Part shown: piece after piece, positions 17,335 to 43,660 of the stretch
Position numbering within the stretch: position 1 is the first letter of the stretch
Layout of the letters: the number at the start of each line of letters is the position of its first letter
NCBI GenBank assembly: GCA_017436785.1
Contig: JAFSCK010000122.1
Span: 1-46,526 of the forward strand
Length of the DNA: 46,526 bases
Source: Oscillospiraceae bacterium
GTDB taxonomy: Bacteria > Bacillota > Clostridia > Oscillospirales > Oscillospiraceae
Direction: 5' to 3'
Notes under the pieces: generated by a model
What the model saw: only the letters and a program-made list of their open reading frames with translations
Told to the model about the DNA's origin: nothing
Databases searched by the model: none
Translations under genes and position numbers: made by a program

Positions 17335-17406
17335 AGACTTTGCCTAAAGAATAAGGCGGTAAAGCATAAATCTATTGCTAAACCAGTTAAAAATCTAATT
17401 TCTCAT
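17335..17406 (-). pseudogene. Decayed 5' end of a second spo0A-site integrase
   Basis: On the minus strand the ATG at 17406 follows AGGAG within a hairpin, exactly as at the intact integrase start (28900). The next 19 codons share about 70 percent of bases with the integrase and keep its pattern (M-x-N at the start, W at codon 8, F-M-L-Y at codons 13-16), but TAG occurs at codon 4 and again near codon 21. The remnant runs into the 3' end of the glycerate kinase gene. It implies an earlier element of the same family at this site. Confidence 0.65.
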
Positions 17407-17411
17407 AGAAA

Positions 17412-17461
17412 AACACTCCTGCTTTCTTGGGCGGCTTATGCCCCAATAAAGCAGGAGTGTT
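17412..17461 (-). terminator. Terminator behind the displaced spo0A 3' end
   Basis: AACACTCCTGCTTT / AAAGCAGGAGTGTT, perfect 14-base arms, with TTTTTC on the minus strand after it. It shares arms and part of the loop (CCCAATAAAGCAGGAGT) with the hairpin at 28907-28955 behind the intact spo0A. Confidence 0.85.
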
Positions 17462-17573
17462 CCCTTAGTTGGCGAAGCTGCATGGAGGGATCTTCGTGCC
17501 GAATATCTGCTTAGCAGTAACGAAAGTGCGCAGATCCTTCGACTCGCTTTGCTCCCTCAGGCTAACAGAATGG

Positions 17574-17822
17574 TCAGAAGTTTGCCACTTCCGAGGACTT
17601 TAACTGCAATTGCAGCTTATCTGCAATAAGCGCAATAAACTCCGAATTGGTGGGTTTTCCTTTGGTATTACTGACCGTATACCCGAAAAATCTTTGCAGG
17701 GTATCCAGGTCGCCCCGATCCCAGGCTACTTCGATGGCGTGGCGGATAGCCCGCTCCACGCGGCTTGGCGTTGTTTGGAATGTTTTGGCGACTTGGGGGT
17801 AGAGTACCTTGGTGATGGCATT
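17574..17822 (-). pseudogene. spo0A: Displaced 3' end of spo0A (last 82 codons)
   Basis: The minus strand encodes the last 82 residues of Spo0A, starting at [10 protein letters not shown] and ending SSEVANF before TGA at 17574-17576. The amino-acid sequence is identical to residues 178-259 of the full-length Spo0A at 29072-29851, yet the DNA differs at about 50 of 249 bases, all silent. It contains most of the DNA-binding domain but no receiver domain. To its right, homology ends abruptly at 17822/17823. It is best explained as the original 3' end of spo0A pushed away when the element entered. Not expected to be a functional protein, although an outward promoter lies upstream. Confidence 0.88.
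17812..17822. repeat. Left attachment-site core of the spo0A element
   Basis: GTGATGGC plus three bases (one mismatch) is the last sequence shared with 29310-29320 before the two copies diverge. It lies at the Ile-Asn-Ala-Ile codons of spo0A. The exact crossover could be anywhere within a nearby identical block. Confidence 0.55.
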
Positions 17823-17944
17823 CACGGGCTTGTCAGCCCGTTGGAGGGGCTTCCAGAAGCGGGTAATTTGGAAGGGTTTTTGTGAAGGATTGATAGCTTT
17901 ATTCGTTGCCCGGTGTTTCCTTTCTTCATCGGGCTTGTAGTTAT

Positions 17945-17973
17945 ATTATAGTAGATTTCAATTTTTGAGTCAA
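17945..17973 (-). promoter_or_regulatory. Outward-facing consensus promoter at the element's left end
   Basis: Minus strand: TTGACT (17968-17973), 17 bases, TATAAT (17945-17950). It reads out of the element across the junction into the displaced spo0A 3' end. In an excised circle it would instead read across the joined ends into the element's own spo0A module and then the integrase. Confidence 0.75.
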
Positions 17974-18371
17974 GTTTCACCCCAATGAACATCTGAAAAA
18001 AGTTTTTTTGAGACTTTTTGAACTAAATTTTACTGTAATTGACCAAACTGCACAGAATAAGGACTTACTACCAACATTCGGAAGCCTTTTGCAAAATCGA
18101 AAACGCCATCTAATCCATAAGATACAGAAAATTATCATCTTTTTTACATCTTTTATTCCAAAAGCAAACATTATTTTATGAGGTTTCCAACAAGTTAATA
18201 ACATCTTTTTTACAACTGCGGAAAGACCTTGCTATGTGGCACATCGAAGTGCTGCCCCGAAGAAAGTTGAACAGCCGCCACCCTGTCGGCAAAGCAAGGG
18301 GATTATTCCTCAAATTCTTCTGTATTTCAGGAAAACAAGTCATGTAAAAACGACCGATTATAGGAAACCGT

Positions 18372-18380
18372 TGATATAAT
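18372..18380 (+). promoter_or_regulatory. Extended -10 promoter of the left operon
   Basis: TGATATAAT gives a TG extension plus perfect TATAAT (18375-18380), 70 bases before the first gene. No good -35 box is present, as is usual for extended -10 promoters. Confidence 0.5.
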
Positions 18381-18450
18381 AGGCTCATAACAAAGGGGAA
18401 AACAAAGACCCCAAAATAAATCAGAAACAATAAAATTGGAGGAATAAAAA

Positions 18451-18840
18451 ATGTATATCAACGAAAAGAAGATGGCTATTGAGATGACTAAGAAGTTTGC
18501 TTCCGCTGCCCGCAAGTTCGGTACTCAGGAGTACAGAAACCTTCAGGAAGCCCGCCGGGATTATCCCAACTTTAAGGTAGTCACCATCACCCGCAAGGCT
18601 CCTGCAAAGGATACCTTCAAGGGTCTGAACTATCCCTTTATGGAGAGCTACATCGAGAAGCACGATGATGCAAACCAGACCATTATGAAGGAGTATCTGA
18701 ACCTCCGTGGTCTGTCTGAGGATGCCAAGGACAATCTGGTAGAGCCTTACGACTACGGCAAGATGAAGAAGTGGTTCCTGAAGAAGTACCCTTCCATCGC
18801 CAATTTCCACAAGCAGTGCGACGATCTTGTTGCCGCTTGA
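18451..18840 (+). CDS. Unknown element protein A
   Basis: 129 residues, basic and rich in Lys and Tyr, with no signal or membrane helix. I do not recognise the family. It shares a clear pattern with the next gene: EY..LQ near residue 27, then KDTFKGLNYPFMESYI around residues 53-68, and KMKKWFLKKYPSIANF around residues 105-120. The tandem pair is therefore a duplication. GGAGG lies 10 bases before the ATG. Base composition is like a highly expressed host gene (many CTG, GGT codons), unlike the AT-rich leader. Small cytoplasmic nucleic-acid-binding protein is a guess from the charge only. Confidence 0.7.
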   Translation: MYINEKKMAIEMTKKFASAARKFGTQEYRNLQEARRDYPNFKVVTITRKAPAKDTFKGLNYPFMESYIEKHDDANQTIMKEYLNLRGLSEDAKDNLVEPYDYGKMKKWFLKKYPSIANFHKQCDDLVAA

Positions 18841-18884
18841 TCCGTATATCATTGACTGGCAACATTGTTTTGGAGGATATAAAG

Positions 18885-19367
18885 ATGATGAATGCTAAGA
18901 GTAGAATGAGAGTTTTTTATGCAGAGGGTGTAATTGAAATGAACACTACCTTTGCTAAGATGATGCAGAATCCTCTGTCCGACGAATACGCCCTGCTCCA
19001 GAAGATCCGCATGGAGAACCCCACCTTTTCTGTGCGCCGCCGTCAGATCAAGAGCAACCCCAAGAAGGATACCTACAAGGGTCTGACCTATCCTTACATG
19101 GAATATTATATCAGTACCCACGAGCCGGAGGATAAGGTAGATGCAGTTCTGGCACACTTTGAGGAGCTGAAGCTGATCTCCCAATGCCATGGTAAACGGC
19201 TGCGCTACCCCACCATCAAGAAGTGGTTTCTGGCTAGATACCCTGAGGTTGCCAAGTTTGGCATGGAGTTTGTTGCAGACGAAGACCCCGCTGCTTCTCA
19301 GGAGCCGATTCCTTTTGCGCCCAATGCTGCCATGCCTGAAGCTGCTGAACTGAAGGAGAGCGCTTGA
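18885..19367 (+). CDS. Unknown element protein B (paralogue of A)
   Basis: 160 residues from ATG 18885, with GGAGG at 18872-18876. An in-frame ATG upstream lies inside gene A and has no ribosome site. Residues about 40-130 align with protein A: EYALLQKIR, KKDTYKGLTYPYMEYYI, and TIKKWFLARYPEVAKF. The C-terminal 25 residues are acidic and Ala/Pro/Glu-rich and are not in A. No known family. The stop overlaps the following small frame (TGATG), so the genes form one operon. Confidence 0.7.
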   Translation: MMNAKSRMRVFYAEGVIEMNTTFAKMMQNPLSDEYALLQKIRMENPTFSVRRRQIKSNPKKDTYKGLTYPYMEYYISTHEPEDKVDAVLAHFEELKLISQCHGKRLRYPTIKKWFLARYPEVAKFGMEFVADEDPAASQEPIPFAPNAAMPEAAELKESA

Positions 19368-19465
19368 TGTATATGATGGTTAAGTTAATGGTGGATGGGC
19401 ATGGTATGACTGCTCAGGTAATCCATGCCCTCCCTGAGAGCTTTTGCGGGAGGGGTTGGCTATGA
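19367..19465 (+). CDS. Possible 32-residue protein
   Basis: ATG 19367 overlaps the stop of protein B and has AGGAG 8 bases upstream; its TGA at 19463-19465 overlaps the start of the next gene by 4 bases. The frame encodes a Met-rich peptide (MYMMVKLMVDGHGM...). The double coupling is the only evidence; it may act as a translational coupler and not as a protein. Confidence 0.45.
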   Translation: MYMMVKLMVDGHGMTAQVIHALPESFCGRGWL

Positions 19466-20025
19466 CGGAATATGTTGTGTTCTACGATGAATGGCTCCCC
19501 CTTCCAAAACCGGAGTTCAATGTGCTGGCTATGGTTGCGGAACAGGGTGGTGCGTACGTCGGAAACTTTTCTGATATGTGCCGATACTTAAATGTGACCC
19601 CACAGAGCCGCAACAGAGAACAACTTCGTTCTGCCATTGAATCCTTAACTTCAAAAGGTTTTCTTACTTGTGACACCAGAGGACGCACCCACCATCTGAA
19701 GGTGATTCCAAGAGAAACAGAAGTGAAGCTCCCCCGGCTCTGGGTGCAATCTGTCATCCGCCACGATTATTCTTCTGAGAAGGTAGCCTTTGCCCAAGTG
19801 CTGAAGGTATTCATGTGGATCACGCAGAACCGTATGAACGTTGTTACAAACGCCATGATTGCGGCGGAGCTAGGCATCTCAGAATCCACGGTCTGCGCTG
19901 CCAAGAATGTTCTGCAACATGAGTATGAGAACATCACCAAAAGGAAGGTATCTGAGAAATGGGGCAGCAGCTTCCGTTCTCTGGGACAGGAGCTTGCGGC
20001 AAGTGCATTGTGGATGGATATATAA
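19462..20025 (+). CDS. Helix-turn-helix protein, replication-initiator-like or regulatory
   Basis: 187 residues. Two winged-helix-like segments are suggested: residues about 15-75 (LAMVAEQGGAYVGNFSDMCR, then SAIESLTSKGFLTCDTRG) and about 110-170 (LKVFMWITQNRMNVVTNAMI, ESTVCAAKNVL). This layout is seen in plasmid initiators and in element transcription factors, and I cannot decide between them. ATG 19462 is set by GGGAGGGG upstream and the 4-base overlap. Last gene of the left operon, followed by a strong hairpin. Confidence 0.55.
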   Translation: MTEYVVFYDEWLPLPKPEFNVLAMVAEQGGAYVGNFSDMCRYLNVTPQSRNREQLRSAIESLTSKGFLTCDTRGRTHHLKVIPRETEVKLPRLWVQSVIRHDYSSEKVAFAQVLKVFMWITQNRMNVVTNAMIAAELGISESTVCAAKNVLQHEYENITKRKVSEKWGSSFRSLGQELAASALWMDI

Positions 20026-20090
20026 AAAGAGTTACTTTTTGCCTGATAATAAATTAAGAGAATTATTACCGGGCAAAAAGTAACTCTTTA
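20026..20090 (+). terminator. Long terminator hairpin of the left operon
   Basis: AAAGAGTTACTTTTTGCC pairs with GGCAAAAAGTAACTCTTT over 18 bases, with an inner TAATAA/TTATTA stem. Starts at the stop codon of the helix-turn-helix gene. Confidence 0.85.
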
Positions 20091-20150
20091 ATTCTTTGTG
20101 ATTTATCTACCCTCCTTAAAAAGCATGATTCTATGAAGTAATTTGCAATC

Positions 20151-20197
20151 GCTATTTTGCTACGAACGCTGCAACAGCAGCGTCGTGCAAAAGTAGC
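20151..20197 (+). ncRNA. Structured leader RNA candidate
   Basis: A long hairpin with single-base bulges: left GCTATTTTGC..ACGA.CGCT, right AGCGTCGTGCAAAAGTAGC, closing on GCAACAGC. It precedes the short TAG-containing gene at 20233 by 36 bases. Its regular pairing over about 18 pairs suggests a conserved RNA element such as an attenuator. Confidence 0.45.
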
Positions 20198-20232
20198 GAA
20201 TGCTTAGATAGAACCCAAAAGGAGGACAAAAT

Positions 20233-20424
20233 ATGTTTGAATGGTATGACAAATAGATCCCGGACTACTACCTCACCATGTACCTGGATGGTTACACCCC
20301 GGAGCAGATTCTTCATGCTGCCCGGCGTGGAATGATGCAAAGGCACCGGGAGCGCAATGCAGAACAGGCAGTAAAGACTTAGGTTGAAGCAGCTTTACGG
20401 GATGTGTTCAAGGACTTCAAATAA
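20233..20424 (+). pseudogene. Small gene with two in-frame TAG codons
   Basis: From ATG 20233 (GGAGGAC 6 bases upstream) the frame reads MFEWYDK, TAG, IPDYYLTMYLDGYTPEQILH..., TAG at 20380-20382, VEAALRDVFKDFK, then TAA at 20422-20424. With both TAGs read as one residue each the product would be 63 residues, acidic-basic and helical, and plainly protein-like throughout. Gln would fit both positions by context. No family is known to me. Either a pseudogene with two nonsense changes or a gene needing amber read-through. Confidence 0.6.
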
Positions 20425-20431
20425 CAAATGC

Positions 20432-20482
20432 GGCAGCCACTTTTCCAATCAACAGAGGTTGGAAAGGTGGCTGCCTTATTTT
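20432..20482 (+). terminator. Rho-independent terminator
   Basis: GGCAGCCAC-TTTTCCAA / TTGGAAA-GGTGGCTGCC followed by TTATTTTG, 8 bases after the TAA of the small gene. Confidence 0.85.
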
Positions 20483-20548
20483 GTTTTTATAAAAATATTT
20501 TGGTATAATTATTATAAATTGAAAATTAACTTTCAAGGAGGTGAGGTC

Positions 20549-20971
20549 ATGGCAAAAACCTATGCAGAAAATGTATGCGCCATGCTGCGCCGGAAGGGGC
20601 TTGCGCCCAAGTATGAGCATCCCGGTATTTACTGTATCAAAGTGGGCGGTTAGATCGTTTATATAGGCAAGAGCGAAAATATGCTGAAGCGTGTAGCATC
20701 CCATTATGTCGGCATTAAAACAAAATCAGAAAAGAAATACCGTCTGCTGTCCGAAATCCAGAGCAATGGATACGGGATAGAATTTGATGTTCTGTACTAT
20801 GCACAGTCAACAGGAACAGCAGCTATCCGGGAAGAGATCGGCAGAAAAGAGGGAGAATACATCCGATAGTACAAACCCGCACTGAATACCCAGATTCCCA
20901 AGGCAGAGAATTGGCACAAATGGGAAACCAATACTGTGGATGCGGCGGAAGTATTGCAGCAGTTCCTTTGA
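20549..20971 (+). pseudogene. GIY-YIG nuclease gene with two in-frame TAG codons
   Basis: ATG 20549 has a near-perfect ribosome site (AAGGAGGTGAGG). The frame runs to TGA at 20969-20971 with only two interruptions, TAG at 20651-20653 and 20867-20869. Read through, it gives 140 residues with GIY at about 31-33 and YIG 9 residues later, the basic helix NMLKRVASHY, and the conserved end KEGEYIR-x-YKPALNTQIP containing the catalytic Glu. The first TAG falls inside the GIY-YIG core, so the truncated product would be inactive. In such domains the residue before YKPxLN is often Gln or Lys. Frame, spacing and ribosome site are otherwise intact. Confidence 0.7.
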
Positions 20972-21298
20972 TCCTCCGTTTCGTCCCTCTTGGATCGTCC
21001 TGACGGGATAGATGTAAATTGTCGCACACGGGCGGGAAAACCGTTTTCTGAAATAAAAATGCAACTTCGTGGGAGTGTGGGTCACACAATTCCATGGTTA
21101 GGGAACGAAAATTTTTTATCCCGAATACCATCCCCCACCCCCTGACGATATAGGAAAACGACAACGGGAGAGGCAGCAATTGGCTGTCCCTCCCGTTTTA
21201 TCTGTTCAATTAAACAATTCGTTTACTTCGCACTTTTGGAACAACCAAAAGCAGCGGAAATCTGTTCAAACAAAGGCTGTTTCTGTTCACGAAAGAAA
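20972..21298. other. Intergenic stretch with terminator
   Basis: About 325 bases between the GIY-YIG frame and the 3' end of the XRE gene. Apart from the hairpin at 21163-21200 I see no gene or regulatory element. Confidence 0.4.
21163..21200. terminator. Bidirectional terminator
   Basis: AACGGGAG-AGGCAGC / GGCTGTCC-CTCCCGTT with T runs on both strands; separates the GIY-YIG gene from the convergent XRE gene. Confidence 0.75.
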
Positions 21299-21526
21299 TC
21301 AGACCGTTTCGTGGACATCTTCCCTTTTTACATACTCCATGAGATCACCGGGCTGGCAATCAAGGTATTCACAGAGACTTTCAATGGAACGGGTATCCAC
21401 ATGACCTGTTCCCTTTCTCATTTTTTCCAGTGTTGCGGTTCCTACAATTTTGTCCTTCCGCAAATCGTACATGGTTTTTTTCTTCTCTTTCAAGAGGTCA
21501 AAGAGTTTATTATAGACAATAGGCAT
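21299..21526 (-). CDS. XRE-family repressor (YozG/Cro-like)
   Basis: 75 residues from ATG 21526, which has AAGGATGGTG upstream; an earlier in-frame start lacks a ribosome site. Helix-turn-helix of the short XRE type: YNKLFDLLKEKKKTMYDLRK, IVGTATLEKMRKGTGHVDTR, LCEYLDCQPGDLMEYV. The divergent promoter region contains three matching 16-base palindromes, one of them inside the promoter of the rightward genes. It probably represses the rightward operon (21781 onward) and itself. Confidence 0.85.
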   Translation of the reverse strand: MPIVYNKLFDLLKEKKKTMYDLRKDKIVGTATLEKMRKGTGHVDTRSIESLCEYLDCQPGDLMEYVKREDVHETV

Positions 21527-21565
21527 ACTATCACCATCCTTGCGGTTGATTATAACACACAAAGA

Positions 21566-21581
21566 GCACTAAAGCTAGTAC
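21566..21581. promoter_or_regulatory. Operator 1 of the XRE repressor
   Basis: GCACTAAAGCTAGTAC, an imperfect palindrome near the repressor gene's own promoter (TATAAT on the minus strand at 21549-21554). Confidence 0.65.
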
Positions 21582-21600
21582 AAAAATTGCACAACAAAAC

Positions 21601-21616
21601 GCACTAGAATTAGTAC
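21601..21616. promoter_or_regulatory. Operator 2 of the XRE repressor
   Basis: GCACTAGAATTAGTAC, same pattern as operators 1 and 3 (GYACTAnnnnTAGTRY), centred 35 bases from each. Confidence 0.7.
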
Positions 21617-21627
21617 ATAATGCCATA

Positions 21628-21656
21628 TTGACTATGTACTAGCTCTAGTGTATAAT
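21628..21656 (+). promoter_or_regulatory. Repressor-controlled rightward promoter with operator 3
   Basis: TTGACT (21628-21633), 17 bases, TATAAT (21651-21656). The spacer is filled by the operator GTACTAGCTCTAGTGT (21636-21651), so bound repressor would block polymerase. Confidence 0.8.
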
Positions 21657-21671
21657 ATAGACATGAAGAAC

Positions 21672-21709
21672 AGGGGAACCCAATTTCAACACCGCTTGTT
21701 GTAACCCCT
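21672..21709 (+). other. Leader hairpin of the rightward operon
   Basis: AGGGG/CCCCT outer arms and CAACA/TGTTG inner arms in the 5' untranslated region just after the promoter. Possible attenuator or RNA stabiliser. Confidence 0.45.
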
Positions 21710-21780
21710 ACACCAAACACAAAGAGGCGGAGGCAGCCGGAGAGACGGCAACAAATTCAAATCACAAAGGAGAAAATAAT

Positions 21781-22056
21781 ATGTCTACCATCGAAATCAC
21801 ATCCAAGATCGAAGCTCTGAAGGAACTGGAAGCCCTGATCGACGAAGCCAAGGCAGAAGCCGAAGCCCTCCGGGACGAGATCAAAGCGGAAATGCTGAAC
21901 CGCAACACTGAAGAAATGGAAGTTGGTCAATACATTGTCCGCTGGACTTCGGTTCTCAGCCAGAGATTCGACAGCACCGCATTCAAGAAGGTCATGCCGG
22001 ATGTGTACAAGAGCTTCATTAAGCAGACCGCAAGCCGCCGCTTCTCCATCAACTAA
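21781..22056 (+). CDS. Small element protein with N-terminal coiled coil
   Basis: 91 residues. Residues about 3-45 form a charged coiled coil (KIEALKELEALIDEAKAEAE); the C-terminal half GQYIVRWTSVLSQRFDSTAF...SFIKQTASRRFSIN is compact and basic. Proteins with this C-terminal pattern are common in clostridial phage and island early regions, but I know no function. AAGGAG lies 9 bases before the ATG. First gene under the XRE-controlled promoter, so probably an early or excision-related function. Confidence 0.7.
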   Translation: MSTIEITSKIEALKELEALIDEAKAEAEALRDEIKAEMLNRNTEEMEVGQYIVRWTSVLSQRFDSTAFKKVMPDVYKSFIKQTASRRFSIN

Positions 22057-22063
22057 TAAAAAA

Positions 22064-22095
22064 GCCCTTGTCAGAGCGGCAACTCTGACAGGGGC
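22064..22095 (+). other. Intercistronic hairpin
   Basis: GCCCTTGTCAGAG / CTCTGACAGGGGC around CGGCAA (one G-T pair), directly after the coiled-coil gene. No T run follows. GGGGCAG here can also pair with CTGCCCC at 22150-22156, giving alternative folds before the SprT-like gene. Confidence 0.5.
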
Positions 22096-22180
22096 AGCCC
22101 AAGAAAAACTCACGACAGTCAATCAAGGGGTACGCTTATTATAAGCCTCTGCCCCTCCAAAATCAAGGAGGAAAATTCCC

Positions 22181-22831
22181 ATGAAACAACTGACCAGCTA
22201 CAACCGTGTCGCCGGATATCTCAATAAGGTTTTCGACCTTCTGAACGCTGAGTTCTTTGAAAGTGAGCTTTCAAGACCCACCATCACCATCCAGTCCACC
22301 CCCAAAGCCTACGGGCATTTCTCTCTGCGGGAAGATACCTGGGTGTCGAAGCTGGGCGGCACCCACGAAATCAACATTGGAGCCGGAACCCTGTCCCGTC
22401 CCATCGAAGAGGTTGCCGCAACACTGCTGCATGAGATGGTACACTACCACAATTATCTGCATGGTGTGCAGGATTGCAGCCGGGGCAACACCTACCACAA
22501 CCGCAAGTTTAAGGCTGCGGCAGAGGAACGGGGGCTGATCGTCACCCACTCCGACAAATACGGCTGGTCACATACTTCCCCTTCTGACCGCCTGTTGGAG
22601 TTCATTCTGGACAATGACCTGACCGACATTCTGATAAACCGCAACGAGTTTGGCGGCTTCCGCATCACTGGCACGGGTACTCACAGCGGTGTAACCTACG
22701 GCGGTGAAGCTCCCCGGAAATCCAGCAGCCGCAAGTATGTTTGCCCTTGCTGCGGTATGAGTGTCCGGGCTACGAAGGTTGTAAACATCGCTTGCATGGA
22801 CTGCGACGAACAACTGCTTTTGGTTGGATGA
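22181..22831 (+). CDS. SprT-like zinc metallopeptidase domain protein
   Basis: 216 residues. The HExxH motif LLHEMVHYHN (His84, Glu85, His88) with a third potential ligand in GNTYHNRKFK identifies a SprT-like (Spartan-type) domain. The C-terminus carries a zinc ribbon CPCCGMSV...CMDCDE. SprT domains cut DNA-crosslinked proteins in eukaryotes; in phage and islands the role is unproven. AAGGAGG precedes the ATG. The stop overlaps an ATG of the next gene region. Confidence 0.85.
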   Translation: MKQLTSYNRVAGYLNKVFDLLNAEFFESELSRPTITIQSTPKAYGHFSLREDTWVSKLGGTHEINIGAGTLSRPIEEVAATLLHEMVHYHNYLHGVQDCSRGNTYHNRKFKAAAEERGLIVTHSDKYGWSHTSPSDRLLEFILDNDLTDILINRNEFGGFRITGTGTHSGVTYGGEAPRKSSSRKYVCPCCGMSVRATKVVNIACMDCDEQLLLVG

Positions 22832-22845
22832 AAAGGGGGAAAATC

Positions 22846-23115
22846 ATGCGGATATTAGAAAAATTCTGGAAGGGAGAAGTGGCACCGGGCGAACGGTGCC
22901 ATATCTCCAAAGGGGAGTATTCCAAGAGCTATGCAGCAATGGTAGACAGTGAAGAATATTTGCAGAAGAATTTGACCGGGGAGGACTTGCAGCAGTTTCA
23001 GCAATTCCGGGACGCTGAACTGAACATGAGCCGCCTGTCAGACTTCGATAACTTTGCAGAGGGCTTCCAGCTGGGTGTGCTGCTGATTCTGGATATATGG
23101 GAGGGGACAGCATGA
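22846..23115 (+). CDS. DUF6809-like small protein
   Basis: 89 residues from ATG 22846 (GGGGG 8 bases upstream); an ATG at 22828 overlapping the previous stop is an alternative start adding 6 residues. The pattern LEKFWKGEVAPGERC at the N-terminus and DNFAEGFQLGVLLILDI at the C-terminus matches DUF6809 as I remember it, a family found in clostridial mobile elements without known function. The stop overlaps the recombinase start (ATGA). Confidence 0.7.
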   Translation: MRILEKFWKGEVAPGERCHISKGEYSKSYAAMVDSEEYLQKNLTGEDLQQFQQFRDAELNMSRLSDFDNFAEGFQLGVLLILDIWEGTA

Positions 23116-23699
23116 ACCGGGGATACAGCCGCTGCTCCACCAATGAGGGCAAGCAAGACATAAACCGCCAAGTCCGGGAGCTGAAGGAAGCTGGTGCCGA
23201 TGTGGTCTATATGGAGTATGAACACGGGGATGCCAAGGTGAAGAGCCAGCAGCAAGCCATGTTCGCAGAAGCAGAACCGGGAGATACCATCATCGTTCTG
23301 GAAGTCTCCCGGCTTGCCAGAAGTACACAGCAGCTATGTGAGATTATCGAACGAATCCGGGAAAAGCGGCTGCGGCTGGTGATCGTAGGCAGCATTACCC
23401 TTGATTGCCGGGATGGACAGGCTGATCCCATGAGCGAAGCATTTTTGCAGATGGCGGGTGTATTCAGCCAATTGGAGCTTGCCATGATCCGGGCAAGGGT
23501 GCTTTCTGGAATGGCAAACGCCGCCGCCAAGGGAGCCAAGATCGGCAGACCGCAAGTGACCGCTGATAATCTCCCGGCAACCTTCCTGCGGCACTACCCG
23601 GCGTATAAGAAAGGGCAGTTGAATGTGTCGGAACTGGCAAGGGTCTGTGATCTGAGCCGGACTACGGTTTATAAGTATATTGCGCTTTTGGAAAGATAA
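23112..23699 (+). CDS. Serine recombinase, resolvase/invertase type
   Basis: 195 residues, the length of a classical small resolvase. N-terminal catalytic domain: GYSRCSTN with catalytic Ser9, EVSRLARSTQ with the active-site arginines, and QLELAMIRAR. C-terminal helix-turn-helix: LNVSELARVCDLSRTTVYKY, for DNA binding. It probably resolves or inverts DNA of the element; the integration itself is likely done by the tyrosine integrase. ATG 23112 overlaps the previous stop by 4 bases. A strong hairpin follows. Confidence 0.9.
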   Translation: MNRGYSRCSTNEGKQDINRQVRELKEAGADVVYMEYEHGDAKVKSQQQAMFAEAEPGDTIIVLEVSRLARSTQQLCEIIERIREKRLRLVIVGSITLDCRDGQADPMSEAFLQMAGVFSQLELAMIRARVLSGMANAAAKGAKIGRPQVTADNLPATFLRHYPAYKKGQLNVSELARVCDLSRTTVYKYIALLER

Positions 23700-23729
23700 A
23701 AAACAGGGAGTTTCACTCTCCCTGTTTTT
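23699..23729. terminator. Bidirectional terminator
   Basis: AAAAACAGGGAG / CTCCCTGTTTTT with a short loop. Ends the recombinase operon and, from the other strand, the RCC1-DUF4365 operon. Confidence 0.9.
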
Positions 23730-23733
23730 CTGA

Positions 23734-24249
23734 TTATACGGCTTTAGGCAATCCGTCTTCTTGCGGCTTATATATCGTAGTTGCTAATCGCTGTAGGTTA
23801 CTATCTTCTTTTGCCACAATTTGATTTTTGGGGATTCGTATGTTGATTGTCCGTTGATCTGAAGATAATTTATCAAGCAGATTTGGGTTTGCGACAACGT
23901 ATTCTTGAATCGGTTGATAGTAAACGATTTCATTCGTAGTATCTACTACGAACAACACAAATGCAACGGGTGATTGCAGTGCGTAGTTGATAGTTTTTAC
24001 TTCCAACGGAAAAGATATGTATTTACCGTCCAGTATTTCAACAGGCTTCTGCTTACCTTTAATCTGACCTTCGATTTTATGATTTTTCCACTGGTCATTC
24101 TCCGCAAGTTCTAAGATGCAATCTCTTCCCACATCGCTTCCTGTTTCCAACTTATAATCCCAATGGTCAGAATCTAAGGTATAGACCAGTATCTTCGCAC
24201 TTTTCCTGCTTACTTTTTGTTGTTCTGTATCTTTTGGATATACGGACAT
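23734..24249 (-). CDS. DUF4365-like protein (predicted PD-(D/E)xK nuclease-type)
   Basis: 171 residues. The core SDVGRDCILELAEN followed by EGQIKGKQKP resembles the D...E-x-Q/K arrangement of PD-(D/E)xK nucleases, as proposed for DUF4365; then PVAFVLFVVDTTNEIVYYQPI is the typical next strand pair. No membrane segment. It lies 20 bases after the RCC1-repeat gene on the same strand, so the two form an operon. DUF4365 domains occur in defence-associated proteins. Nuclease activity here is inferred from motif order only. Confidence 0.7.
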   Translation of the reverse strand: MSVYPKDTEQQKVSRKSAKILVYTLDSDHWDYKLETGSDVGRDCILELAENDQWKNHKIEGQIKGKQKPVEILDGKYISFPLEVKTINYALQSPVAFVLFVVDTTNEIVYYQPIQEYVVANPNLLDKLSSDQRTINIRIPKNQIVAKEDSNLQRLATTIYKPQEDGLPKAV

Positions 24250-24269
24250 GGTATCTCTCCGTCTTTTGC

Positions 24270-26123
24270 TTACGCATTTAACTTTTTCAGTTCATCATCA
24301 ATAGCGGCAATCTGTGCTTCCAATTTCTTTTTCTTACCAGAAGAAAAAATCCCCTTGATGTTTGGTAACTCAGCTTGTAATGCCAGCTTTTCTTTTTGAA
24401 GTTCTGCTATACGAGCCTTACGCCTTTCTTCTGCGGCTTTTTCCTCGGCAATTCTGTGTTCTTCTGCGGCTTTTTCTGCTGCGATTCGTAAAGCCTTATT
24501 CCTTACGATATTCCTATCAAGATCTGCCACATCATTAAACAGCTTCAATCCAGAGCAATTCAATTTTCCTGTATTCGGACCTTCTCCACAACTAACTACA
24601 GTTCCATCTGCACAAATGCCGATTGTTAAAAGGGCACCATTTGTCTTGATTGCAACAATATCTTTCCAGTCAGAAACGTTGCATTCTCCCCATTGATTTT
24701 CGCCACACGCAACAACTGTACCACTTTGTGTTAACCCGACTGCGTAACTCGCACCACTATCAATTGCAACAATATTGCTCCAATCATCCACTGACAATTT
24801 ATTTTCATCATCTTTCCACGTGAATACGGTTCCATCGTCTCTTAGGCATATTTTTGTTACGAACGGACCACATATACTTTTAACGTCTCTCCACACTGCG
24901 CTCCGTCCATCAGAGCTAATCAGTTCAACATCACCGTTTTGAGAAAATGCCGCAAACTGATAGCTCACCGCCTTAATATTAGTCACATCACGCAGACTTG
25001 AAATATAAGAATTGGCATTAGCATTCGTATTGCCGTATTTAACTGTGCCATCTCGACATAGTCCAACGGCTACATTAGTAGTTGCATCAACTGCAACGAT
25101 ATCTTTCCATTTGTTAGCGTTCCTGACAATTAAATCCCATTTTTTATCATCAAATCCCAATCCATTACTTCCACAAGCCACCACAGTTCCGTCCATCCGC
25201 AAACCGATGACAAATTCACCCGCAATACGAAGTGCCTTGATATCTCTCCATTTTGAAACAGTGTTATTGATAGTGGTATTTTCGCCGCAAGCGACAACTG
25301 TTCCATCCGCACGAAGACCTACGGTATTACTATAACCTATACCAATGGATATCAGGTTGTTCCATTTTGCTGGGTCGTATGCACCATCCCGGTTATTACA
25401 GACTTGAATTGAACCATCTGCACACAGAGCAACCAGATGTCCGTCTATAACATCAATCATTACAGAACAGTCAGGGTCATTCAGTCGTTCACGAATTTCA
25501 GCCAGCCGCTTTACACTATTCTCTGCATTTCCGCAAAGTGTCGTTAGCTGGTTTACCAGCGTATCATTTCCGTAACGAATTGCTTTTTGGTAGTTCCTGC
25601 TTTCGGATAGCGGTTCTTTACATTGAGCAAGTTCCTCTAAGGTATGAGCCTTCTTTTCGACCATCAGCTTTGCAAGATATGCTTCTGCCAATTCGGGATC
25701 TCTATCAAGGCAAGATTCACTATAGGCATTTGCAGATGCCCAATCGCCATCCTCTAAGAAAATAAAAGCTCTTTTGAGTAATGCTTCTGTTGAAGCGGTA
25801 GTGTTGATATTGATTGCCGGGGATACTGGTGCCTCAAGCGCAGGAGAAGAATGACTATGCTTTTTTTCTTCACCAAAGTAAGGGGATAGGTTGCGAGAAT
25901 GACAATGAGGACACTGGTTAAAATCAATTACTTTGTCGTTGTATCGATCCGCTTGCCCTTGTAAATGATGTGTTTGAAGTACACTTCCACCTCCTAATAT
26001 CGATGCTAATGCTCCGACGGATTCTAAAGCAGCAATACCGGCATTACTTGCGTTTTTCTTTAGGTCTTCATCCGTATAGCAGAATATGTGACCACATACA
26101 TTACATTTCATTTTATATTCCAT
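24270..26123 (-). CDS. RCC1-like repeat protein with zinc ribbon and coiled coil
   Basis: 617 residues. Order: N-terminal zinc ribbon (CNVCGHIFCYTD ... QCPHCHSRN, residues about 8-75); a short TPR-like helical part (about 110-170); eight RCC1-like repeats (about 220-530), each with a variant of ADGTVVACGEN preceded by a W-x-DIVAI strand; and a charged C-terminal coiled coil (about 545-617). The repeats should fold as a beta-propeller, a binding surface. No enzyme motif is seen. GGAGG precedes ATG 26123. It is followed by the DUF4365 gene, and its promoter carries a palindrome also found before the WYL regulator gene. A sensor or scaffold partner for the nuclease-like protein is my inference. 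Confidence 0.75.
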   Translation of the reverse strand: MEYKMKCNVCGHIFCYTDEDLKKNASNAGIAALESVGALASILGGGSVLQTHHLQGQADRYNDKVIDFNQCPHCHSRNLSPYFGEEKKHSHSSPALEAPVSPAININTTASTEALLKRAFIFLEDGDWASANAYSESCLDRDPELAEAYLAKLMVEKKAHTLEELAQCKEPLSESRNYQKAIRYGNDTLVNQLTTLCGNAENSVKRLAEIRERLNDPDCSVMIDVIDGHLVALCADGSIQVCNNRDGAYDPAKWNNLISIGIGYSNTVGLRADGTVVACGENTTINNTVSKWRDIKALRIAGEFVIGLRMDGTVVACGSNGLGFDDKKWDLIVRNANKWKDIVAVDATTNVAVGLCRDGTVKYGNTNANANSYISSLRDVTNIKAVSYQFAAFSQNGDVELISSDGRSAVWRDVKSICGPFVTKICLRDDGTVFTWKDDENKLSVDDWSNIVAIDSGASYAVGLTQSGTVVACGENQWGECNVSDWKDIVAIKTNGALLTIGICADGTVVSCGEGPNTGKLNCSGLKLFNDVADLDRNIVRNKALRIAAEKAAEEHRIAEEKAAEERRKARIAELQKEKLALQAELPNIKGIFSSGKKKKLEAQIAAIDDELKKLNA

Positions 26124-26190
26124 GCAAACATTCCTCCATCAATGTAGTCTTAAAAATGTTGAAACAACGTTTTTCGACTTTAACAAAACT

Positions 26191-26219
26191 ATAATAACAT
26201 TTTGAAAAGTGCATTTCAA
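26191..26219 (-). promoter_or_regulatory. Promoter of the RCC1-DUF4365 operon
   Basis: Minus strand: TTGAAA (26214-26219), 17 bases, TATTAT (26191-26196). Its -35 and spacer are covered by the palindrome at 26202-26219. Confidence 0.65.
26202..26219. promoter_or_regulatory. Operator A of the cargo module
   Basis: TTGAAAAGTGCATTTCAA, palindrome with TGCA centre. The same site, inverted, occurs at 26608-26625. Probably bound by the WYL or XRE regulator encoded next to it. Confidence 0.65.
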
Positions 26220-26247
26220 GCGTTATCGCATTTTTATAACGAATGAT

Positions 26248-26275
26248 TTGCTATAAAAATGCTCTATTCTATACG
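26248..26275 (+). promoter_or_regulatory. Possible promoter of the XRE-WYL genes
   Basis: TTGCTA, 16 bases, TATACG, 18 bases before the start codon. Weak match; an alternative uses TATAAA at 26252. Confidence 0.35.
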
Positions 26276-26292
26276 GGAAGGGAGTTGACCGT

Positions 26293-26604
26293 ATGGATAT
26301 TGAATTTGTCCGGGAACGGATTACGCAACTGCGGCTGCAAAAGGACGTATCAGAATACAAAATGAGCTACGATTTAGGTCACAGTCGGGGCTATATCAAC
26401 AACATCTCTTCTGGAAAAACGCTGCCCTCCATGACAGAGTTTTTTGCAATTTGTGATTATTTCGAAATCTCTCCCGCCGAGTTCTTCAGTGCCAAAACCG
26501 AAAATCCCAAGCTGTCCCGTACAGTTACGGAGCTTTTGGAACAGCTTGACCAAGAGGATCTGGAGTTGACCCTAACCAACATCCAGCGACTACTGCGCAG
26601 ATAA
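26293..26604 (+). CDS. XRE-family regulator of the cargo module
   Basis: 103 residues. Helix-turn-helix in residues 5-65: VRERITQLRLQKDVSEYKMS, GHSRGYINNISSGKTLPSMT, FFAICDYFEISPAEFF. The rest is a short acidic helix that may dimerise (LEQLDQEDLELTLTNIQ). GGGAG upstream of the ATG. It is divergent from the RCC1-DUF4365 operon and 34 bases ahead of the WYL gene, with which it is probably co-transcribed. Confidence 0.85.
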   Translation: MDIEFVRERITQLRLQKDVSEYKMSYDLGHSRGYINNISSGKTLPSMTEFFAICDYFEISPAEFFSAKTENPKLSRTVTELLEQLDQEDLELTLTNIQRLLRR

Positions 26605-26607
26605 TTT

Positions 26608-26625
26608 TTGAAAATGCACTTTCAA
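26608..26625. promoter_or_regulatory. Operator B of the cargo module
   Basis: TTGAAAATGCACTTTCAA, the inverted counterpart of operator A, between the XRE stop and the WYL start, touching the WYL ribosome site (AAAGGGG at 26624-26630). Suggests autoregulation. Confidence 0.65.
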
Positions 26626-26638
26626 AGGGGTTGCCGCA

Positions 26639-27826
26639 ATGGCTGAAGAAATCATCTATAAAAAAGTAACCCGTAAAGCAGACAAGGGTTTGGAAGGGAA
26701 GATCATTGCTAAGCACGGCAAGCAGAAGGATCAGAAGCTGAAACCCTACCTTGTGCTGCAATACCTTCTGAAATACTCTGACGAGAATAACACCCGAACA
26801 GCCTATGACATTATCGGCTATTTGGAGGGCTGCGGCATACACGCCGAACGCCGTTCCATTTACAAGGATGTTGAGGACATTAACCGTATTTTGCTCATGC
26901 TCCAAGAGGATGTAGACCTTGAAGAAGCGGATATGATGATTGCGGAAGCGGAGGAATCCGGGGATGAAGAGGAAATTGCCGAACTGAAAACGATCCGCTA
27001 TGACCGCTCCAAGAAAGGCTTTTATGTCCGGCAGCGGAAATTCGATGTAAACGATATGCGTCTGCTGGCTGAGTGCGTGTATGCTGCAAAATTCATTGCA
27101 GAGGGTCAGGCGAAGCGGCTGGTGGATGTGGTCTGTGATTTTGTCAGTGAGGAACAGGCTCAGAGAATCAGACACAACGCATTTCTGACGGATAGAGTTA
27201 AGACCGACAACAGAAGCGTTCTAAATAACATTTCCGCCATTAACGAAGCCATGAGCCGACACATCGACGGGCAACCCCACACCCCGGAGAAAATCAGCTT
27301 CAAGTACCTGAAGCATTCCGTTAGCGATATGAGCAAGCAAGTGGAACGCAAGGCTGGCTCCCGGTACAAGGTCAGCCCTTTCCAGTTACTTATCAATGAC
27401 GGTAACTACTATCTTCTGGCTTTTGCAGATTACGCTCAGGATATGAGAACCTATCGTGTTGACCGTATGAAGGATATCCGTTTCACCGGGGAGCCGAGAG
27501 ATGGAGACGAAATATTTAAGACAATTGATATAAAATCCTACACCAAACGGGTATTCTCTATGTTTGGCGGTGAGCGAAAGTTGGTAGAAATGCACTTTGC
27601 AAACGCACTTCTGGATGCAGTTGTTGACCGCTTCGGCACAAAATACGTCCAGTATGGCAGAGTAGACGAAGATCATTTCAGTGTAACCGCAACAGTGGAG
27701 ATCAGCGATCAGTTCTATGGCTGGCTGCTGGGTTTTGGTGATAGTGCAAAGCTAACCTACCCGGAGGAGCTTGTGGAGAAATTCCGGGCGTATCTGGATA
27801 AGATTAGAGCCTTGTACGGAAGTTGA
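26639..27826 (+). CDS. WYL-domain transcriptional regulator
   Basis: 395 residues. The N-terminal winged helix covers about residues 25-90 (KPYLVLQYLLKYSDENNTRT, GIHAERRSIYKDVEDINRI). The WYL domain follows at about residues 205-300 (KYKVSPFQLLINDGNYYLLAF, RTYRVDRMKDIRFTGEPR), and the WCX-type C-terminal domain ends the protein. WYL proteins sense nucleic acid or nucleotide ligands and often control phage-defence loci (BrxR-like, CapW). Its position beside the RCC1-DUF4365 operon, with shared palindromes, makes it the likely switch for that operon. Confidence 0.9.
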   Translation: MAEEIIYKKVTRKADKGLEGKIIAKHGKQKDQKLKPYLVLQYLLKYSDENNTRTAYDIIGYLEGCGIHAERRSIYKDVEDINRILLMLQEDVDLEEADMMIAEAEESGDEEEIAELKTIRYDRSKKGFYVRQRKFDVNDMRLLAECVYAAKFIAEGQAKRLVDVVCDFVSEEQAQRIRHNAFLTDRVKTDNRSVLNNISAINEAMSRHIDGQPHTPEKISFKYLKHSVSDMSKQVERKAGSRYKVSPFQLLINDGNYYLLAFADYAQDMRTYRVDRMKDIRFTGEPRDGDEIFKTIDIKSYTKRVFSMFGGERKLVEMHFANALLDAVVDRFGTKYVQYGRVDEDHFSVTATVEISDQFYGWLLGFGDSAKLTYPEELVEKFRAYLDKIRALYGS

Positions 27827-27837
27827 ATAAAAGATGT

Positions 27838-27879
27838 TAAAAAGGAGTAAGAATCTTGCTTGATTCTTACTCCTTTTTG
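27838..27879. terminator. Bidirectional terminator between WYL and integrase genes
   Basis: AAAAGGAGTAAGAATC / GATTCTTACTCCTTTT with a 5-base loop. It ends the WYL transcript from the left and the integrase transcript from the right. Confidence 0.9.
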
Positions 27880-27913
27880 CTTATGGAGTTGTTAAATAGT
27901 TGAATGTTAAGAT

Positions 27914-28900
27914 TCAAAAGTTGTTCATTGGGCTGGCTCTGTGGTACTGCTTGCTAATATCGTCGTCGGTCAGATCCAAATATGCTTTTTCAGTAACCTC
28001 CACGCTGGAATGTCCGAGAATCTTACTGAGGGTAAAAATATCCATGCCGTTCATCAGACACCTTTTGGCAAAATTATTTCTCAGACAATGGGGCGTGTAC
28101 GCTTCGTTCAATCCGGCACGAAGGATGTATTTCTTGAAGTTGCTTTCAAAGTTACCCACGCCGATGGAGCCGCCGTGTTCTTTGACAGGGAAGAGGTAGT
28201 CACTCTCCACATACCTGTCCTTAAATTGCAGCCATCGCCGAAGCACAATTTCCGTCTTGGGGGAGAAGTACACTGTCCTGTCTTTTCTGCCTTTGGTTTC
28301 TTCGGCTCTGAGGTTGATTCTCTTTCTGCCCAGTTCCAGATCCGTCACAAGAACCGTGGAACATTCGCCCAGACGCATACCACTGTCAAGCATGAGCATG
28401 ACCATTACATAATCCCGATGTTCTGTGAAATAGGACTTATCAAATTTGGAAAGTAGCTTCTTCAGATCTTCGTCCGAGAGGAAGACTTTCGCCTGTCGGT
28501 TATGTTTCAGTTGGCGGATTCGCTTCATAGGATTCTTGCGGATGATATACTCTCGTTCCATCCAATTAAAGAATACTCTGATATTGCGGATGTAATTGTT
28601 AATGGTGGTAACGCTGACAGGCTTGCGGTAATCCCTTCTGCGGTCTGGACAGTTCTTGCTTTTGGAAAGATCGTTGACATAGAAGGTGTATTTTCCCCGC
28701 AACATTAAGTCGTCAATGTACTTGCGGATCACATTCTCCGTAATCTTATCCACAGTGTAAATCTTCAGTTCATCGGACAGCCAACGACCGAACAAATGAA
28801 GGGTTTGTTCATAGCTGCTCATGGTTTTTTCTCTCAATTGGGTACTGCGGCAATAAAGCATAAATTCATCGGTAAGCCACTCAAAATCTAAATTTTTCAT
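27914..28900 (-). CDS. int: Tyrosine integrase of the spo0A element
   Basis: 328 residues, XerC/D-like. A SAM-like core-binding domain (about 5-125) is followed by the catalytic domain with all active residues: Arg176 in SGMRLGE, Lys203 in ETKGRKDR, His271 and Arg274 in PHCLRNNF, His297 in LGHSS and Tyr307 in TEKAYLDL. ATG 28900 has AGGAG at 28911-28915; an ATG 7 codons upstream lies inside the hairpin and has no site. The gene is 172 bases behind spo0A on the same strand, and its ribosome site is buried in the spo0A terminator. It presumably integrates the element into the spo0A coding sequence and, with partners, excises it. Confidence 0.92.
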   Translation of the reverse strand: MKNLDFEWLTDEFMLYCRSTQLREKTMSSYEQTLHLFGRWLSDELKIYTVDKITENVIRKYIDDLMLRGKYTFYVNDLSKSKNCPDRRRDYRKPVSVTTINNYIRNIRVFFNWMEREYIIRKNPMKRIRQLKHNRQAKVFLSDEDLKKLLSKFDKSYFTEHRDYVMVMLMLDSGMRLGECSTVLVTDLELGRKRINLRAEETKGRKDRTVYFSPKTEIVLRRWLQFKDRYVESDYLFPVKEHGGSIGVGNFESNFKKYILRAGLNEAYTPHCLRNNFAKRCLMNGMDIFTLSKILGHSSVEVTEKAYLDLTDDDISKQYHRASPMNNF

Positions 28901-28906
28901 ACAAAA

Positions 28907-28955
28907 AATACTCCTGTTCATTGGGGTGATTTTGACCCAATAAAGCAGGAGTATT
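28907..28955 (-). terminator. spo0A terminator that overlaps the integrase ribosome site
   Basis: AATACTCCTG / CAGGAGTATT outer arms, ATTGGG/CCCAAT inner arms, then TTTTTTG on the minus strand. The integrase AGGAG lies in the outer arm, so in read-through RNA it would be masked. Confidence 0.85.
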
Positions 28956-29071
28956 CATTGGTACAACGAAAAAAGTTCATCGGTATGAAAACCCGATTTT
29001 ATACCTATCAATCACATCTTCATTGCATTGGCAAGCCAAAAGAAAAAAGCCGAAAACCTGTTGCGGCACAA

Positions 29072-29851
29072 TCAGAAATTGGCAACCTCGGAAGACTTCA
29101 GCTGAAGCTGCAATTTGTCAGCGATAAGGGCAATGAACTCAGAATTCGTTGGCTTTCCCTTGGTATTGCTGACCGTATACCCAAAGAATCTTTGCAAAGT
29201 ATCCAGGTCCCCTCTGTCCCAGGCTACCTCGATGGCGTGTCTGATTGCCCGTTCTACGCGGCTGGGTGTGGTCTGGAATGTTTTCGCCACCTGAGGGTAC
29301 AATACTTTTGTGATGGCGTTGATGACATCCATATCATTGACGGCGATGATGATAGCCTCTCTTAAATACTGATAGCCCTTGATATGGGCGGGGACGCCGA
29401 TCTCGTGAATGATGCTGGTGACGAGGCTTTCGATATTATTCTTGTCCATCCGGCGGCGGTCGGGGTACCGGAGGCTCTCCCCGCCCCGGATCTCTTCCAA
29501 CCGCTCCACCAGCGCGGTCATATCGCAGGGCTTCAGCATCAGATACCGGACCCCTAGATTGGCAGCGGCGGCGGAAACATATTCAGTAACAAAGCCGGAG
29601 GTAGCCAGTGTGATGGGCTTCCGGTCCAGATTGGCAATGGTTTTCAAAACGCTGATGCCGTCTTTTTTGGCAAGCATCAGGTCCAGCACCAGAACATCGG
29701 GTCTTCTTTCTTCGATCATGCGGATGGCCTGCTCCCCATCAGAGGCTGTCCCCACTACCTGAAAACCGTCGGTCCGCTGCAATGCGGCAGTCAGCCCGGT
29801 GCAAAAGTCCTCAGCGCTGTCGGCGATGAGAACGGTGGTTGCATGTTCCAT
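29072..29851 (-). CDS. spo0A: Sporulation master regulator Spo0A (hybrid, 3' end supplied by element)
   Basis: 259 residues, normal length. The receiver domain (1-120) has the phospho-acceptor Asp57 in VLVLDLM and Lys107 in LMLKPCD. The Spo0A DNA-binding domain (about 140-250) has [30 protein letters not shown] and [21 protein letters not shown] 29851 is set by AGGAG 7 bases upstream. Codons 178-259 duplicate those at 17574-17822 with only silent changes; the element border falls at codons 177/178, so the gene is a chromosomal 5' part joined to an element-borne 3' part. It controls entry into sporulation. Integrity of the hybrid protein suggests selection to keep it working. Confidence 0.95.
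29310..29320. repeat. Right attachment-site core of the spo0A element
   Basis: GTGATGGC plus three bases, counterpart of 17812-17822. Sequence to the right (29321 onward) is found only here and belongs to the host spo0A 5' part. Confidence 0.55.
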
Positions 29852-43470: not shown

Positions 43471-43539
43471 TACCGTATCCAGGTGGATTCTGCCTACTCC
43501 ACAAAATAGGCATCGTCCACTAAAAATAAAGGAGGAAAT

Positions 43540-43643
43540 ATCCGTCTGACGCACGGTGCGGCAGTGTGGAGACCTGTCGTAATGCTCCCGCAGATTGGTT
43601 ACTATGCGGGTATGTGAGAACGTACGCGAAATGGTAGGTACGT
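43540..43643 (+). other. Structured 5' leader of the sugar ATPase gene
   Basis: AAGGAGG at 43530-43536 is followed by no start codon. Then come small stems CGCAC/GTGCG near 43551, CCCGCA/TGCGGG (43587-43610) and ACGTAC/GTACGT (43620-43643) just before the ATG. The arrangement suggests post-transcriptional control. Confidence 0.45.
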
Positions 43644-43660
43644 TTAGCGTCGAAAAAATT

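Follow-up and report, generated by a model that had tools for sequence, protein, structure and literature searches.

An 11.5-kb element that probably integrated into the coding sequence of spo0A in an Oscillospiraceae bacterium, and a family of spo0A-associated tyrosine integrases

Introduction

In a 46,526-nucleotide contig of an Oscillospiraceae bacterium (JAFSCK010000122.1, assembly GCA_017436785.1; this whole stretch is hereafter called the window), the 3′ end of spo0A, the gene of the sporulation master regulator, occurs twice, once in an intact gene and once as a fragment about 11.5 kb away, and a tyrosine integrase gene lies between the two. How did a second spo0A 3′ end come to stand there, and which of the two ends belonged to the host? 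An original prediction, made from the sequence alone, proposed that a mobile element had integrated into the spo0A coding sequence and carried a replacement 3′ end with it. Support for this proposal comes from relatives of the integrase, from congeners with the site occupied or empty, and from the family-wide pattern described below. Very probably, the window contains a site-specific integrative element of 11.5 kb, and it belongs to a family with Xer-like tyrosine integrases directed at the spo0A coding sequence. The host genome encodes spoIVA besides spo0A, which fits a spore former.

Results

The two 3′ ends of spo0A in the window

The element spans 11,498 bp (17823-29320), is headed by the tyrosine integrase and lies between two spo0A 3′ ends, which form a same-strand direct repeat of 249 nt at a spacing of 11,498 (Table 1). 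The product of the intact gene is a full-length Spo0A (TIGR02875, E 7.8e-85) with the domains Response_reg and Spo0A_C, and its reading frame is open with the element integrated, unlike a gene interrupted by a skin-type element. Aligned over 249 nt, the live and the displaced 3′ ends are 80% identical, with 51 mismatches, 44 of them at third codon positions, and no amino-acid difference. The similarity starts at codon 178, where the live gene reads GTC ATC before the edge and AAC GCC ATC AC after it, and the displaced copy CCC GTG before and AAT GCC ATC AC after. The results thus confirmed three observations of the original prediction, namely 82 shared residues with about 50 silent differences in 249 positions, a sharp edge at codon 177/178, and a tyrosine integrase directly behind the intact gene. 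The stretch shared at the junctions is GCCATCAC in the window and reaches more than 20 bases in congeners; the bases flanking this core on both sides differ between attL and attR.

The silent-only divergence had also been taken as a sign of recent selection on both copies, an interpretation that we do not uphold. An identity of 80% is ordinary between congeners (the live 3′ end of the window has a mean identity of 0.791 to the average integrase-less congener, n=27), and an identical 84-residue Spo0A end occurs in five other genomes; strong constraint on the C-terminal domain therefore suffices to explain it.

The same two-ended layout was found in an independent genome, G049, so that an assembly artefact is very unlikely and was rejected. 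Its integrase is 99% identical to that of the window as protein and ~92% as DNA, and two other element segments (5.8 kb in total) are 95.6% identical, whereas the 5′ parts of spo0A are only 76% identical.

An integrase family tied to spo0A

Relatives of the integrase were collected from named genomes (the best 80 of 93 matches, giving 77 loci) and from viral contigs (12 loci). Among these 89 fetched loci, some of which are near-identical to one another or repeat genomes already sampled, 70 were informative in having at least 350 bp upstream together with the integrase start, and 19 were uninformative. Each of the 70 has a spo0A match that ends at most 500 bp upstream of the integrase; it is full length in 64 and a 3′ piece in six. 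One of these six is cut by a contig end (L153), another is a junction contig described below (L163), and in the remaining four (L098, L099, L135 and L154) the element appears to lie buried behind another one. At the first of these four (L098/L193, genome G117), the integrase is preceded only by the C-terminal domain of Spo0A, residues ~131-252, a layout that would fit either a buried element or an attachment point at the domain boundary.

The hosts include Paenibacillus, Gorillibacterium, Neobacillus, Mesobacillus, Clostridium, Desulfosporosinus, Agathobaculum, Oscillibacter and Oscillospiraceae. At 64 of 65 loci, the spo0A gene beside the integrase keeps an open reading frame, 252-284 codons long; in Mesobacillus zeae (L180/L131) it carries an early stop, which may reflect a pseudogene, a restart or a sequencing error. 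Within the genus of the window, a close integrase, whole or partial, occurs in 10 of 136 genomes, counting that of the window; in nine it follows full spo0A and in G117 a C-terminal fragment of Spo0A; in G025 and G129 the integrase is reduced to its first 69-79 residues, still behind full spo0A. Matches were found in 6 of 400 genomes of a family sample and in 4 of 394 of an order sample, each including the window genome, and the new ones adjoin spo0A or a piece of it, except G561 (31% identity). Three distant recombinases tested (L016, L017 and L077, ~25-31% identity) have no neighbouring spo0A. Integrase relatives were absent from phage records at E 1e-25 and from plasmid records at 1e-40, and the phage entries with Spo0A matches (14 and 16 records) were unannotated faecal contigs, apart from one weak match in an annotated phage. 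The arrangement in the window is thus not a one-off, and relatives of its integrase adjoin spo0A in many spore-forming bacteria.

A conserved hairpin and repeated motifs at the element ends

The integrase gene lies at the element end adjoining the restored spo0A, 171 nt behind it. Its start is likely the ATG at 28900 (328 aa) rather than the one at 28921, because the Shine-Dalgarno sequence AGGAG precedes 28900. In 50 of 64 leaders of the family, a hairpin just 5′ of the integrase start pairs all but at most one base of the Shine-Dalgarno sequence; 10 of the others have no recognised Shine-Dalgarno sequence and four a less paired one. The 64 leaders are partly non-independent, and three (L083, L089 and L090) fold barely better than shuffles. 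For 22 of the 64 leaders, selected by eye for similar geometry, the covariation score was 0.572 versus 0.310 for shuffled alignments, with none of 500 shuffles as high and slid versions reaching 0.11-0.25. Compensatory changes were present in 10 of the 13 pairs, and 92.6% of cells could pair versus 79.3% after shuffling. Since a T run stands behind the stem, the hairpin is likely a terminator for spo0A, and it may also gate translation of the integrase.

Within the stem, TTTATTGGG is conserved. A further motif, CCNATRAA, occurs per 220 nt 2.35 times in the heads of 37 elements, 1.30 times in their tails and 0.064 times in their interiors. As the motif was derived from element heads, its enrichment there is circular, and only the enrichment in tails is partly independent. 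Both TTTATTGGG and the CCNATRAA motifs at the ends may be protein-binding sites.

Displaced fragments, sizes and crossover points in relatives

Of the 65 loci where spo0A is matched over nearly its full length, 40 have a displaced 3′ fragment on the same strand, 26 of them within the fetched flank (at most 10 kb) and 14 more by searching 20 whole genomes. Among these 20, the fragment lay on the same contig in 16, on another contig in one and was absent in three; a short opposite-strand match (L145) was left uncounted. The measured elements range from 1.5 to 39.5 kb, with two that have broken integrases (L142 and L146) among the shortest. In Clostridium sp. KNHs214, Clostridium sp. DSM 17811 and UBA10612, the direct repeats (90, 123 and 128 nt) are 100% identical, which suggests recent insertion.

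The crossover, taken as the start of the displaced fragment and given in residue numbers of the window to within a few codons, falls at 176-182 in the window group, in L091 and in three Paenibacillaceae, and at 188-205, 209-219 or 222-234 in other lineages, with one case at 131. In the genus of the window, displaced fragments with a complete left end share their start codon, and their tails are of two related types. Two Neobacillus elements have integrases 93% identical and homologous tails, yet they are joined at codons 188 and 202; either the enzyme tolerates different points or later events reset the ends.

Comparison of 26 elements, five of which were represented by 11-kb stretches whose right end was unmapped, revealed the integrase as the sole protein cluster common to all. 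Some carry a type III restriction enzyme, or a TmtA-like protein beside a UvrD-type helicase, and a cargo helicase in some matches a possible alternative Cas3 model and DpdF. A small serine recombinase was observed in 12 of the 26 (window 23097-23699 and 11 others) despite the tyrosine integrase. RCC1-repeat proteins of one cluster were observed in the window (24270-26123) and in L137 (14070-16262), from distant hosts.

Occupied and empty sites, transfer and the excised form

In the integrase-less congeners G020 and G093, an opposite-strand PPIC rotamase/C39 peptidase gene ends 58-60 nt after spo0A, and in a third (G002) 389 nt after it. In the occupied genomes G084 and G030, a related gene ends 71-110 nt after the displaced fragment; it lies 406 nt after the fragment in G076, beyond an old scar, and 3,355 nt after it in G049. 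The pairs G030, G084 and G020, G093 are those expected of occupied and empty sites. The search for empty sites in relatives proposed with the original prediction thus succeeded for congeners and returned none matching the DUF4147/MOFRL flank of the window itself. A short integrase start or spo0A 3′ piece was found downstream of spo0A in 5 of 27 integrase-less genus loci, each counted once, one of which (G077) had been added on account of a piece already known there; most of the 27 loci were covered over 1.5 kb only.

Oscillibacter valericigenes An860 and Pseudoflavonifractor phocaeensis An901 share ~61% identity over spo0A nt 1-360 and have integrases 93-96% identical, a contrast that we count as support for transfer between hosts. 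In this pair no sharp step was seen at the crossover, and identity climbs gradually through the conserved C-terminal domain.

A 13.9-kb IMG/VR record with terminase, portal and head genes (L163) shows the order element interior, tail, spo0A 3′ piece and integrase, which is an attP-type junction. It is a circular permutation of L161 and L162, in which the same element begins at the integrase; most aligned stretches are 99-100% identical, with the exception of one 1.4-kb stretch at 84% and others at 94-97%. Its junction is as expected of either an excised circle or a tandem pair. A further viral record of 17.8 kb (L160/L207, G898) was observed to have spo0A 3′ pieces, identical-looking by eye, at both ends.

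A scar behind the displaced fragment and the origin of the two ends

Behind the displaced fragment, positions 17355-17462 hold a decayed copy of the live spo0A-integrase junction, with the hairpin and then the integrase start in the same order. The local alignment scored 112 versus a maximum of 39 in 500 mononucleotide shuffles, and the start-to-start offset of the two junction copies is 11,494 versus 11,498 for the two spo0A ends. Because this remnant of an older integrase stands behind it, the displaced fragment is itself probably element-borne, most likely as the 3′ end that came with an earlier element, since lost. In G076, the sequence behind the displaced fragment is nearly identical to the live junction over ~200 bases, after which the old integrase breaks off, and the live and displaced coding ends are identical beyond the first 180 of their 249 nt. 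Such a mosaic would result if two 3′ ends had exchanged sequence by homologous recombination. In 7 of the 34 occupied sites with enough sequence, the window included (six by protein search), another piece of integrase or spo0A lies behind the displaced fragment, and two elements stand in tandem in L096. In Paenibacillus macquariensis (L135), Spo0A 3′ pieces were observed at two places with integrase sequence after each and frame shifts, perhaps a stacked array.

The original prediction had regarded the displaced piece as the host's own original end, and this would make the integrase-like remnant coincidental or otherwise acquired. Two results speak for such an origin: the displaced ends of G030, G084 and G076 are closer than the live ends to those of the empty-site loci L060 and L062 (3/3, these two being close kin of each other), and the other 27 of the 34 occupied sites show no further piece behind the fragment. 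We nevertheless judge it improbable, since the remnants in the window match the live order at nearly the same distance and those of G076 do so almost base for base. Relatedness did not favour it either, as neither 3′ end of the window follows the 5′ part of spo0A across 27 integrase-less congeners (rho 0.23 and 0.28). A genus-wide test of 3′-end shuffling at silent sites, which are near saturation, gave no support for shuffling: two 5′ segments show almost no correlation (rho 0.105), and the 5′ segment adjoining the site correlates more highly with the 3′ segment (0.321). Another reading, in which the integrase has long stood immobile beside spo0A and the fragment arose by tandem or segmental duplication, is very unlikely. 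It would fit the position of the integrase next to spo0A at every informative locus; this idea was rejected on the shared start codon and related tails of the displaced fragments in the genus, and on near-identical integrases behind different spo0A 5′ parts. Against it stand also the motifs that tails have in common with heads, the absence of the integrase from most congeners, and live and displaced ends that differ in the window as much as those of two species. Hardly credible, finally, is a skin-like splitting, in which the element interrupts spo0A and must leave for Spo0A to be made. The recombinases of skin and yin are of the serine type, whereas the enzyme here is a tyrosine recombinase. 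Elements that interrupt sporulation genes are indeed described in the accessible part of one report (skin, vfbin, the gerE element and yin; PMC10747680), but the frame beside the integrase is open in the window and in all loci other than that of Mesobacillus zeae, and this explanation was rejected on the intact spo0A frame in the integrated state.

Several points weigh against integration of a site-specific element as the preferred reading. An empty site matching the window was not found: in none of the 30 congener loci tested does its left flank, a DUF4147/MOFRL gene, stand behind spo0A. For the element of the window, no reads, circle or transfer were seen. The ends of L163 do not overlap, and tandem integration could give the same junction. 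No displaced fragment was present on the same contig in 25 of the 65 loci, four of which were searched as whole genomes and 21 in the fetched flank only. Which 3′ end was resident in the window is not settled by relatedness, silent sites being nearly saturated. Six of the 37 elements have no CCNATRAA at either end, and a profile scan recognised no arm-binding domain in the integrase, so that the role of the end motifs is unsure.

Other genes of the element and its surroundings

The features of the locus are collected in Table 1. No head, packaging or tail genes were recognised among the 10 window proteins scanned against PHROGs, nor relaxase or conjugation genes among the window proteins scanned, small open reading frames having been scanned in part. 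Beside the element, a Lacto-N-biose phosphorylase gene (12804-14969) and a solute-binding protein gene (9143-10504) were observed, possibly a locus for host-glycan use. A malK-I cis-regulatory RNA (Rfam RF03069, 109 bits) lies at 43479-43666.

Table 1. Coordinates of the spo0A locus and of the element in the window
Feature	Position	Strand	Basis or remark
Intact chimeric spo0A	29072-29851	-	Codons 1-177 resident, codons 178-259 element-carried
Element-borne spo0A 3′ end	29072-29320	-	Codons 178-259 and stop
attL core GCCATCAC	29310-29317	-	Codons 179-181; crossover placed within this shared stretch
Five CCNATRAA motifs	28865-28983	-	28976-28983, 28954-28961, 28937-28944 (inverted), 28917-28924, 28865-28872; candidate recombinase or accessory-protein sites
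Hairpin pairing integrase Shine-Dalgarno (AGGAG), then T run	28907-28957	-	Probable spo0A terminator and integrase translation gate
Tyrosine integrase (Xer-like, 328 aa), spo0A-associated family	27914-28900	-	Phage_integrase E 8.9e-30
WYL/WCX regulator	26639-27826	+	Profile match
XRE-type helix-turn-helix regulator	26293-26604	+	Profile match
RCC1-like repeat protein, variable cargo	24270-26123	-	Other genes at this place in G049
DUF4365 protein, variable cargo	23734-24249	-	Profile match; comparison with G049
Small serine recombinase (invertase/resolvase-like)	23097-23699	+	Cluster present in 12 of 26 compared elements
SprT-like protein	22181-22831	+	Profile match
Apparently non-coding right end (tail) of element	17823-18430	-	CCNATRAA at 17925-17932; inverted at 17982-17989
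attR core GCCATCAC	17812-17819	-	Shared junction stretch
Displaced spo0A 3′ end	17574-17822	-	Matches live 3′ end
Decayed hairpin and first codons of older related integrase	17355-17462	-	Scar of earlier insertion

Discussion

Our results suggest a cycle in which the circular element would carry an attP consisting of the tail, a short core, a functional spo0A 3′ end, and then the hairpin and the integrase gene. The integrase would recombine the core of the element with the matching codons of resident spo0A, joining the resident 5′ part in frame to the 3′ end of the element, so that a whole Spo0A could be made, and the former resident 3′ end would be left as a nonfunctional fragment at the opposite end of the element. 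The hairpin would end the spo0A transcript and hide the ribosome-binding site of the integrase from read-through, and a later element would insert in the new 3′ end, so that elements and scars stack up. The restored frame with its displaced end, the stacking and the conserved hairpin are directly legible in the sequences, from which we infer the action of the integrase, excision, a regulatory part for the hairpin and the way of transfer. On a broader reading, to which we give an even chance, spo0A would be an ancient, Bacillota-wide docking gene for one Xer-like integrase clade, with an attachment point creeping along the coding sequence and the frame restored each time. Element-derived 3′ ends would then persist after decay of the element, the DNA-binding domain would have been repeatedly passed between species by mobile DNA, and the element would be locked in because loss of its left end would break sporulation.

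Phage 21 uses icd of E. coli as its integration site. So does prophage e14, which, according to the accessible text of PMC6379469, lies inside icd, brings a replacement 3′ end and leaves a 163-bp icd′ fragment. Of the known systems compared, e14 in icd comes closest, sharing a conserved coding gene as the site, the supply of a replacement 3′ end and a displaced 3′ fragment left behind. The spo0A element differs in that its target is the sporulation master regulator and its integrase clade spans Bacilli to Clostridia. The spo0A family also shows a varying crossover codon, serial scars and a conserved hairpin over the ribosome-binding site of the integrase, features that may likewise set it apart from e14 and its kin. 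With the elements in sigK, spsM, spoVFB, gerE and yabG, which interrupt their gene until excised as described in the accessible part of PMC10747680, the spo0A element shares a site in a sporulation gene, but it leaves the gene whole while in place and uses a tyrosine integrase.

Of ~1.75 million islands mapped by TIGER/Islander, 43.4% sit in protein-coding genes (PMC12424338), and islands of the spo0A type may be among them; the text of that article, which is separate from the island database itself, does not name spo0A. The accessible part of PMC6907783 reports enrichment of the Spo0A C-terminal Pfam family (Spo0A_C) in gut mobile elements and offers there no reason involving integration into spo0A. 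Nothing on elements in spo0A was met in the accessible parts of PMC12884075, PMC11063209 and PMC10538166. The literature on spo0A and similar elements, covered in part and exclusive of island catalogues, contained no description of an element that integrates into spo0A and restores the gene, and within this limit the spo0A target, the breadth of hosts and the shifting site appear to be new.

The sporulation master regulator would thus be a widespread integration site, which is a candidate reason for the enrichment of Spo0A_C in gut mobile elements. The family provides dozens of natural examples of integrase specificity shifting within one gene, and it calls for caution, as spo0A 3′ ends can be horizontally acquired. 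Moreover, spo0A integrases might serve as tools for placing cargo in a gene that spore formers conserve, with the gene left intact.

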